DNA of 64,000 nt, from the NCBI RefSeq assembly GCF_003052265.1, contig NZ_QANS01000001.1:186001-250000 (forward strand), written 5' to 3'. This document shows, in pieces, positions 24,828-26,715 of this stretch; the stretch's first letter is position 1, and every line of letters starts with the position of its first letter. The stretch comes from Stenotrophobium rhamnosiphilum (GTDB taxonomy: Bacteria > Pseudomonadota > Gammaproteobacteria > Nevskiales > Nevskiaceae). The translations under genes and the position numbers were made by a program. Under the pieces are notes generated by a model, which ran no database searches, was not told where the DNA came from, and worked only from the letters and a program-made list of their open reading frames with translations.

Positions 24828-24830
24828 AAC

Positions 24831-24896
24831 GTAGGGTGCGCCGTGCGCACCAACTCTCTACTTAAGGGATTTGTTGGTGCGCACAGCGCACCCTAC
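24831..24896. repeat. GTAGGG-type dispersed palindrome
   Basis: Near-perfect inverted repeat: GTAGGGTGCGCCGTGCGCACC at the left end and its near complement ending GCGCACCCTAC at the right, with about 24 bp between. Same subtype as 46276-46341. Its right end supplies the TAG stop of the leftward gene that follows. Confidence 0.85.
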
Positions 24897-25300
24897 AAAT
24901 CTTCAGAGTTAGTAGGCTCAGTACGATCGCTGTCGTCTTCCAAGTCACCGGCTTCAGCGATTTTTTCCAAACGCTTTAAATGCATCTTGAGAATACGCTC
25001 GCCTGCGCCTTCGTTGTTCAGCTGATCTTCCAGCGCATTGCGCAGCGCTTCGATATCAAAGTGAGCAGACTCCGGATCCGTCACTGCGTTGATTTCGCCG
25101 CAGAGTTTTTCCCAGTTACCGTCGACGATCAGCATCACCGGCATGATCGGTTCGTCCAGCTCAATGCTGGAAAATTCGAAACGATGAGAGTGTCCATCCC
25201 AAGTCACCCACTGTGCTTCGCGTGAGTCGAGCCAGGTGAGAACAGCTTCAGCAAAAACGGCCGCAAATTTTTCAATCTGCGCGGGTTCGATCGCGATCAT
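24893..25300 (-). CDS. Hypothetical acidic protein
   Basis: 135 residues; no family recognised. The N-terminal two thirds look like a compact globular domain (MIAIEPAQIEKFAAVFAEAVLTWLDSREAQWVTWDGHSHRFEFSSIELDEPIMPVMLIVDGNW), and a charged helical part runs to a Glu/Asp-rich tail (LEDDSDRTEPTNSEDL). No signal peptide or membrane segment. The ATG at 25300 is preferred: the longer frame (to 25327) would take its first codons from the inverted-repeat element that starts at 25305. The TAG stop lies inside the palindrome at 24831-24896. Confidence 0.6.
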   Translation of the reverse strand: MIAIEPAQIEKFAAVFAEAVLTWLDSREAQWVTWDGHSHRFEFSSIELDEPIMPVMLIVDGNWEKLCGEINAVTDPESAHFDIEALRNALEDQLNNEGAGERILKMHLKRLEKIAEAGDLEDDSDRTEPTNSEDL

Positions 25301-25304
25301 TATG

Positions 25305-25569
25305 GGGCCTGTTAACGCTAGTTTCACGTCAGCGCTGCCCCCTCAAAAATTGCCAGGCAAGGCGCGACTGACGAAGTTTAGTGATTCTAAACGAGGAAGG
25401 AGCAACGCGGCATGGCAATTTTTGAGGCGGCAGCCCGAAGGGGCGGGAGCCATTGGACGCATGGCGGCGTCATCAGTCGCTTACATAGAGTCACTATGCC
25501 GCGCTCCCTCTTTCTTGCCCTGCGCCCAATGGCTTTCGCCGCTGGCGCGAAATTAGCGTTAACAGGCCC
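25305..25569. repeat. 265-bp structured inverted-repeat element (MITE-like)
   Basis: Bounded by 30-bp inverted repeats (25305-25334 and 25540-25569) with three mismatches, each starting GGGCCTGTTAACGCTA. Inside are two long hairpins. Hairpin A has 22-bp arms at 25334-25355 and 25413-25434 (one mismatch) and an apical GTTTAG-TGATT-CTAAAC stem. Hairpin B has 23-bp arms at 25442-25464 and 25518-25540 and an apical CATAG-AGTCA-CTATG stem. It exactly fills the gap between the hypothetical gene and the lipA stop. No ORF for a transposase; no clear target duplication. Confidence 0.8.
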
Positions 25570-26544
25570 TTAAGCCTGTAACACGCCGTGTGCTTGTTGA
25601 TCAGCGTGATAGCTGGAGCGCACCATCGGACCGCTCGCAACGTGGGAGAAACCCATTTCTTCGCCGAGTATGCGCAGGCGTTCAAATTCATCCGGATGCA
25701 CATAACGTGCGACTGGCAAATGATGTTTAGATGGTTGCAGATATTGGCCCAGCGTCAGCATGTCGACCTTGTGCGCGCGCAGATCGCGCATCACTTGTTC
25801 GATTTCGCTGATCTCTTCTCCAAGGCCCAGCATCAAGCCGGATTTGGTCGGCACTTCTGGATGCAGACTTTTGAAGCGCTCGAGCAGATCGAGTGACCAT
25901 TCGTAGTCCGAACCCGGACGCGCTTGCTTGTAGAGGCGCGGTACGGTTTCCAGATTGTGGTTGAACACATCTGGAGGCGTGTCATTAAAGATCACCAGCG
26001 CAGGATCCATACGACCGCGGAAATCCGGCACCAGTACTTCAATCGTCAGTTTTGGTGACAGCACGCGGGCTTCGCGGATACAAGCGGCAAAGTGTGCGGC
26101 GCCGCCATCTTTCAAATCATCGCGATCTACTGAAGTGATGACGACATAGCGCAGTGCCATATCGCGAATTGTGCGAGCGAGATTAATCGGCTCGTCCGCA
26201 TCGAGCGCATTCGGGCGACCATGTGCCACATCGCAGAACGGGCAGCGACGGGTGCAGATCGCACCCATGATCATGAAGGTGGCCGTGCCCTTGCCGAAGC
26301 ATTCGCCGAGGTTGGGGCAGTTGGCTTCTTCGCAAACCGTATGCAGATTGTTGTCGCGCAGCGCTTTCTTAATGCGCGCGACTTCTGGCGTGCCCTGCGT
26401 CTTGGCACGAATCCAAGACGGCTTGCGCAGCATCTCTGTCGTGGCTTCGATCTTGATCGGAATACGCGCCATCTTCTCCGCGCCACGCAGTTTTTCACCG
26501 GCGACGATGGGTTTGATAGCGGGGGATTCTGGGGACGTGCTCAT
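25570..26544 (-). CDS. lipA: Lipoyl synthase
   Basis: 324 residues from the ATG at 26544. This radical SAM enzyme inserts two sulfurs into protein-bound octanoyl groups. [12 protein letters not shown] is the auxiliary-cluster CX4CX5C motif, CTRRCPFC the radical SAM CX3CX2C motif, and RSSYHAD near the C-terminus supplies the conserved Ser ligand. The frame stays open 51 codons further upstream, but that part is translated repeat DNA and is not conserved LipA sequence. lipB is not adjacent. The stop abuts the 265-bp element. Confidence 0.95.
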
Positions 26545-26659
26545 GCGGGGCTCGATTCGCGGACGGCACATTTTACGCCCTTCAGATGGGGGAATGTCGG
26601 TTAATCCTTGCTTGGCGGGAAATGGGGCTTTGCTGGGGAGGTAGGGGGAGGGAGTTCTG

Positions 26660-26715
26660 CTCCTGCGCGGCTTTTTAGAGAGGGCATCTCTGCACAAACG
26701 CCTACGCTCTTTCGC
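26660..26715. repeat. 56-bp direct repeat, copy 1
   Basis: Starts CTCCTGCGCGGC, contains GGGCATCTCTGCACAAACGCC and ends CTACGCTCTTTCGC. It matches 26755-26810 with only a few substitutions. Located upstream of lipA. Confidence 0.8.

Follow-up and report, generated by a model that had tools for sequence, protein, structure and literature searches.

The window, a 64,000-nucleotide stretch of the Stenotrophobium rhamnosiphilum genome (contig NZ_QANS01000001.1, positions 186,001 to 250,000), holds a 265-bp element (25305-25569) in which two hairpins lie within terminal inverted repeats. On one side the element directly adjoins the TAA stop codon (25572-25570, minus strand) of lipA (Radical_SAM and LIAS_N; 25570-26697, minus strand), the start of which is that of the longest ORF and may truly lie further in. 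On the other side the ATG (25300-25298) of a downstream gene without a Pfam match (24893-25300, same strand) begins about 4 bp past the element (junction at 25298-25304), which supplies the 5' leader of this gene and probably its ribosome-binding site too. A second, unrelated palindrome (GTAGGGTGCGC...GCGCACCCTAC) lies at 24830-24897 between an OsmC-like gene and the next gene. The contact with the lipA stop codon had been noted in a preliminary description of this DNA, which also held that the element has no ORF; a 106-aa open frame (25236-25556) in fact crosses it but shows no gene-like sign.

The element is built from nested inverted repeats, as the preliminary description had it. The outer arms (25305-25334, plus strand, GGGCCTGTTAACGCTAGTTTCACGTCAGCG; and 25540-25569, minus strand, found by inverted-repeat search) form a 30-nt repeat of 90% complementarity. 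Hairpin A (25334-25434, plus strand), delimited by inverted-repeat search and folding, has a 25-nt stem repeat (25334-25358/25410-25434, 92%), and hairpin B (25439-25543, minus strand), delimited in the same way, has one of 27 nt (25439-25465/25517-25543, 81%); hairpin B extends at its base into the inner part of the right arm. Hairpin B is a diverged inverted relative of hairpin A, a relationship already suspected and now borne out by a further inverted repeat (I6) as well as by the sequence. Within hairpin A, core strand 1 (GCCAGGCAAGGCGCGA, 25352-25367, plus strand) and core strand 2 (GCAACGCGGCATGGC, 25402-25416, plus strand) flank a tip (TTTAGTGATTCTAAA, 25376-25391, plus strand) that varies among members, as seen from its sequence and a comparison of inner sequences.

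Nine full copies, 84-91% alike, are present in the host genome on both strands of five contigs, with one end fragment on a sixth contig; the element is thus no singleton, the case that would have weighed against the preliminary description. Relatives match in 28 of 61 genomes (the host's own included) and in 14 of 21 genera, and the one other genome of the host's genus gave no match. The core-strand pattern, of which core strand 2 is also a part, has at least 118 further matches in named genomes; those listed include Solimonas, Nevskia, Salinisphaera, Salinicola, Microbulbifer and Variovorax, as well as Ramlibacter, Acidovorax, Herbaspirillum and a Zetaproteobacterium. Among the 119 core matches listed, 34 have no enclosing inverted repeat at the thresholds used, several because the locus ends nearby. 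The relatives of the element are spread across Gamma- and Betaproteobacteria, and the family is very widespread. A few core matches come from metagenome-assembled genomes labelled Desulfovibrionaceae and Bacteroidota; at four loci (L102, L111, L116 and L150) the core stands in such genomes labelled Bacteroidota or Phaeodactylibacter, by horizontal spread or bin contamination. The window element itself matched no plasmid or phage record. A Solimonas member used as query matched two plasmid records out of 72,556 and none from phages; a bare-arm query, run at E up to 10, matched seven plasmid records, two of them real, and a Burkholderiales-type query matched two. No Rfam family matches the element, and no published description of the family was found in the open-licence literature, searches with sequence strings included.

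The recurrent part of the members is formed by two strands, GCCAGGCNAGGCGCGA and GCAACGCNGCATGGC, which lie below the tip; their constancy is in part a result of selection, as the search pattern was built from the same letters. The tip motif TAGTGAYTCTA, emphasised in the preliminary description, is not the conserved part: TAGTGANTCTA is found in only 5 of 100 distinct inner sequences, and a looser form in 14. Members differ in the number of hairpins. The main form measures 265-271 bp. Forms with one hairpin (L318-L322) measure 172-182 bp, and some palindromes are bare of hairpins (L190, L191 and L256); the core can be lost with the palindrome remaining. Members of about 370 bp (L026, L018/L187) have one more hairpin, placed between A and B or next to them, as if hairpins were gained as units. 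One Ramlibacter element (L209) has a further hairpin within hairpin A.

Empty sites were found at two Variovorax loci. At the first, the copy of Variovorax paradoxus 2u118 reads ...GGAC[TA]GGG..CCC[TA]ACCGC, and the empty junction GGACTAGCCGC is intact in two sister species, with three more species lacking the element and having an altered spacer. None of the 14 loci with both flanks at this site holds the element, strain SPNA7 set apart; in that strain the core is lost and both arms are kept. At the second site the element is present in three species, in one of them as GGTC[TA]GGG..CCC[TA]AACCC, and absent from 27 of 30 loci (GGTCTGAACCC and similar). Read from these alignments, both sites fit an insertion at TA with duplication of the TA, each needing one extra base difference. 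From 68 elements with TAG ends, four orthologous duplicates were removed; in the resulting 64, one of which (L006) was bounded by the script inside its arm, the reconstructed targets are CTAG in 39, CTAA or TTAG in 13, TTAA in 5 and other in 7, giving a YTAR context in 57. A 4-bp duplication of the IS5 type fits without further change only the 39 CTAG cases; if arms and flanks were homogenised after insertion, this could obscure whether 2 bp or 4 bp were duplicated. For the window copy there is no orthologous empty site, since related genomes have different sequence beside lipA.

Among elements with enough flank, an open frame of 100 codons or more ends exactly at the boundary TAG, on one side or the other, in 48 of 61, compared with 27 of 84 control sites, for which CTAG sites at other positions of these loci were used (Fisher p 4e-8; open frames, not gene calls, were scored). 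The TAG frame is open at 61 of 125 boundaries and the other two frames at 23 and 38, so open frames of high-GC DNA explain part of the excess. In the host genome, only two of the nine copies adjoin a stop codon. Because the first base of the element is a G, insertion after TA rebuilds TAG and would leave the struck gene intact; the copies display a bias that suggests landing at stop codons and recreation of the TAG.

The ends of the element point to its likely mobiliser. When viral contigs were scanned with the terminal end pattern, end pairs 821 bp (L359) and 862 bp (L373/L358) apart came to light, with transposases inside. These transposases carry the Pfam domains DUF4096 and DDE_Tnp_1 and belong to the NCBIfam IS5 family NF033580, an assignment made on L373 and L359, the remaining autonomous elements being tblastn relatives. 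By the reverse route, from the transposase to plasmid records, eight of ten elements were found to have TAGGGCSTGTTMACACTA-type ends or ends one or two bases off, mostly at CTAG. These eight come from Enterobacter, Variovorax, Polaromonas, Caballeronia (two, L392 and L393, which look like the same insertion and have one arm one base off the shared end consensus), Cupriavidus (two) and Paracoccus; the other two of the ten loci (L394 and L398) lack TAGGGCSTGTTMACACTA-type ends. Autonomous IS5-family elements (L383, L390-L393, L395-L397, L359 and L373; about 810-860 bp, range 809-863) thus carry the ends of the element, TAGGG(C/T)(C/G)TGTT(A/C/G)AC, mostly at CTAG, and the outer end of the left arm in the window matches the same TAGGGCSTGTTMACACTA. 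Among six further IS5 loci (L383-L388), the match is perfect over 18 bp in L383, and L384 (ISKpn12 family) has a related TAGGGTCAGGAC end; the lipA end of the window copy reads AGGGCCTGTTAACGCTA, compared with AGGGCCTGTTAACACTA in L383. The twin-hairpin core is absent from the nine autonomous IS5-family elements scanned. Since the ends are those of autonomous IS5-family elements, mobilisation in trans by an IS5-family transposase is suggested. The idea that this is a non-autonomous mobile element, one of two raised in the preliminary description, is thereby upheld, together with the nine dispersed copies, the relatives in 28 of 61 genomes and the empty sites; the search for copies and empty sites that it proposed was successful on both counts.

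A transposase of another family has to be considered. The duplicated TA and the preference for CTAG first led us to suspect an IS630/Tc1-mariner element as mobiliser of the window type; the IS630 ends do not fit, and those of IS5 do. An IS630 group in a genome from the host's own family (G015) shows CTAGTGTCCTTTAACA ends at CTAG that resemble those of single-hairpin TAGTGTC relatives, yet only 11 of 15 end bases agree with the element by eye, PF13358 has no match in 16 of 20 Variovorax genomes, the IS630 copies there have other ends, and IS5-family elements match the ends better, making a MITE of the IS630/Tc1-mariner family very improbable. PF13358 and PF13701 each gave no match in the host genome. 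At three loci (L222, L239 and L289), IS630-family elements are inserted into or at the edge of the palindromes, at the element's own TA sites. The architecture, with two related imperfect hairpins in opposite orientation, an intergenic position and conserved asymmetric strands, also recalls the inverted REP pairs (BIMEs) moved by Y1 (RAYT) transposases, but long terminal inverted repeats common to IS5 elements and a duplicated TA are not known as features of REPs, and we give such an origin hardly any credence.

The preliminary description also offered a family of structured RNAs and proposed folding and covariation analysis. The fold is indeed strong (RNA z -12.5 and -11.1 for the two strands, DNA z -8.8; none of 200 dinucleotide shuffles equalled it), and on most measures covariation is higher than in any of the shuffles or slid controls. 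Many copies stand directly after stop codons and so would probably be transcribed, as expected of a 3' UTR structure or small RNA maintained by selection on pairing. The covariation, however, lies mainly in the outer arms. In 31 outer pairs of the 23 Variovorax copies (19 sites, three of them represented in two or three species), 13 have two-sided changes, with 50 two-sided, 1 one-sided and 10 unpaired cells; among the nine host-genome copies, 17 of 28 pairs have two-sided changes, with 46, 6 and 3 such cells, respectively. Over the outer 23 nt, 18 left arms can be told apart among the Variovorax copies, and the left arm equals the right in 15 copies; mismatches between the two arms of a copy add up to 11 over all copies, compared with a minimum of 54 in 20,000 permutations. 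A change in place is seen in L305, where both bases of pair 15:256 are unlike those of the orthologues L308 and L310; L305 also shows unrepaired changes in one arm. An RNA under selection would be expected to change through G-U pairs, and the near lack of these in the outer arms points to homogenisation of the arms at the DNA level, not to selection on an RNA. Template switching between the arms of inverted repeats is described, in accounts of such repeats, as homogenising them (PMC8604942, PMC8794818). With hardly any G-U step, no Rfam match, and a spread that empty sites and IS5 ends explain without an RNA role, a structured-RNA family is improbable and gives way as the main reading; strong folding and covariation, which the preliminary description proposed to examine, are both present.

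We therefore consider it highly probable that the element is an IS5-family (NF033580) MITE that inserts at TA, has its arms homogenised and carries the hairpin core along. It is proposed that a transposase of the NF033580 group (DUF4096 plus DDE domain) moves the element in trans, and that it would insert at TA, usually within CTAG or another YTAR and often in the stop codon of a gene. After insertion, one arm may serve as template for the other during replication by palindrome template switching, as the paired changes without wobble intermediates suggest. Hairpins would be gained and lost, giving core-less, one-, two- and three-hairpin versions. For the twin-hairpin core, carried along in this way, our best guess is a role in preserving the palindrome's capacity to fold and be replicated, or in helping mobilisation. 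The window copy is old and probably no longer mobile.

The core is not confined to elements with the ends found in the window: the 31-base hairpin signature occurs in elements with unrelated ends, namely TAGGG with TA duplication, CCTRGAAACGGCAGTTG, and TAGTGTC (Salinicola and others). In Burkholderiales, the same core is found in elements with CCTRGAAACGGCAGTTG ends and 5-bp direct repeats (TTCAA, ATTAT and TTTAT, by eye). In the 3.4-Mb genome of Ramlibacter sp. H39-3-26 (G061, L081) the CCTRGAAACGGCAGTTG ends match 160 times forward and 149 times reverse (309 in all), an unusually dense load of MITEs with 5-bp direct repeats. IS1380 was tried as mobiliser of this Burkholderiales type, which has CCTAG ends and 5-bp repeats; PF13701 is present in only two of ten genomes, and the intact resident IS1380 copy in Ramlibacter has other ends, TTAGCCCG(G/C)ATATTTCAC, so that IS1380 was rejected for that genome. 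Relatives with one hairpin, whose ends read TAGTGTC or TAGTGTG and lie at CTAG, were observed at eight loci (L074, L092, L104, L151, L164, L173, L182 and L194). Their ends are close to those of the IS630 group in G015, which hints at a possibly different mobiliser, and for the TAGTGTC relatives the IS630 reading may apply. One may speculate, though we think it rather unlikely, that the twin-hairpin core is a travelling module, a passenger of passengers, to which a host protein of replication or recombination may bind so that long palindromes survive and spread.

In kind, a MITE of a known IS family is ordinary. A close parallel is MITEPsy1 of Pseudomonas syringae, described as short, protein-less, associated with IS5 ('IS5?', with ISPsy2-like ends) and inserted at CTAG or YTAA, with transposition in vivo reported (PMC3189936). 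MITEPsy1 differs in being 100 nt long, in its 18-nt ends of other sequence (GGAAGGTCTGAAAAAGCC) and in the reported 4-nt duplication, and its description there gives no twin-hairpin core (PMC3189936). The inverted REP pairs are likewise two related hairpins in opposite orientation (PMC2817692), but REPs belong to Y1 transposases, and the present element has terminal inverted repeats and a duplicated TA. The autonomous NF033580-group IS5 elements share the ends and mostly the CTAG site, and differ by their length of 809-863 bp, the presence of a transposase and the absence of the core in the nine scanned. The sequence of RUP, from Streptococcus pneumoniae, is taken here to be unrelated to the element. 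RUP and other TA-site MITEs are, in the account of PMC2229807, short and intergenic with a TA target, and mobilisation in trans by an IS transposase was proposed for RUP; it differs in being linked to IS630-Spn1 and 107 bp long (PMC2229807). The novelty lies in the family and its spread, the core, the landing at stop codons and the clear homogenisation of the arms.

For the genomes concerned, the findings mean that this family is present but unannotated in many proteobacteria, with a benign landing mode in which the first base of the element would restore the stop codon it strikes. They also carry a caveat for RNA discovery: the textbook-strength covariation in these elements is very probably the product of DNA arms that copy one another, and not of selection on an RNA. 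Looking for a scarcity of G-U intermediates offers a simple test for other cases too.
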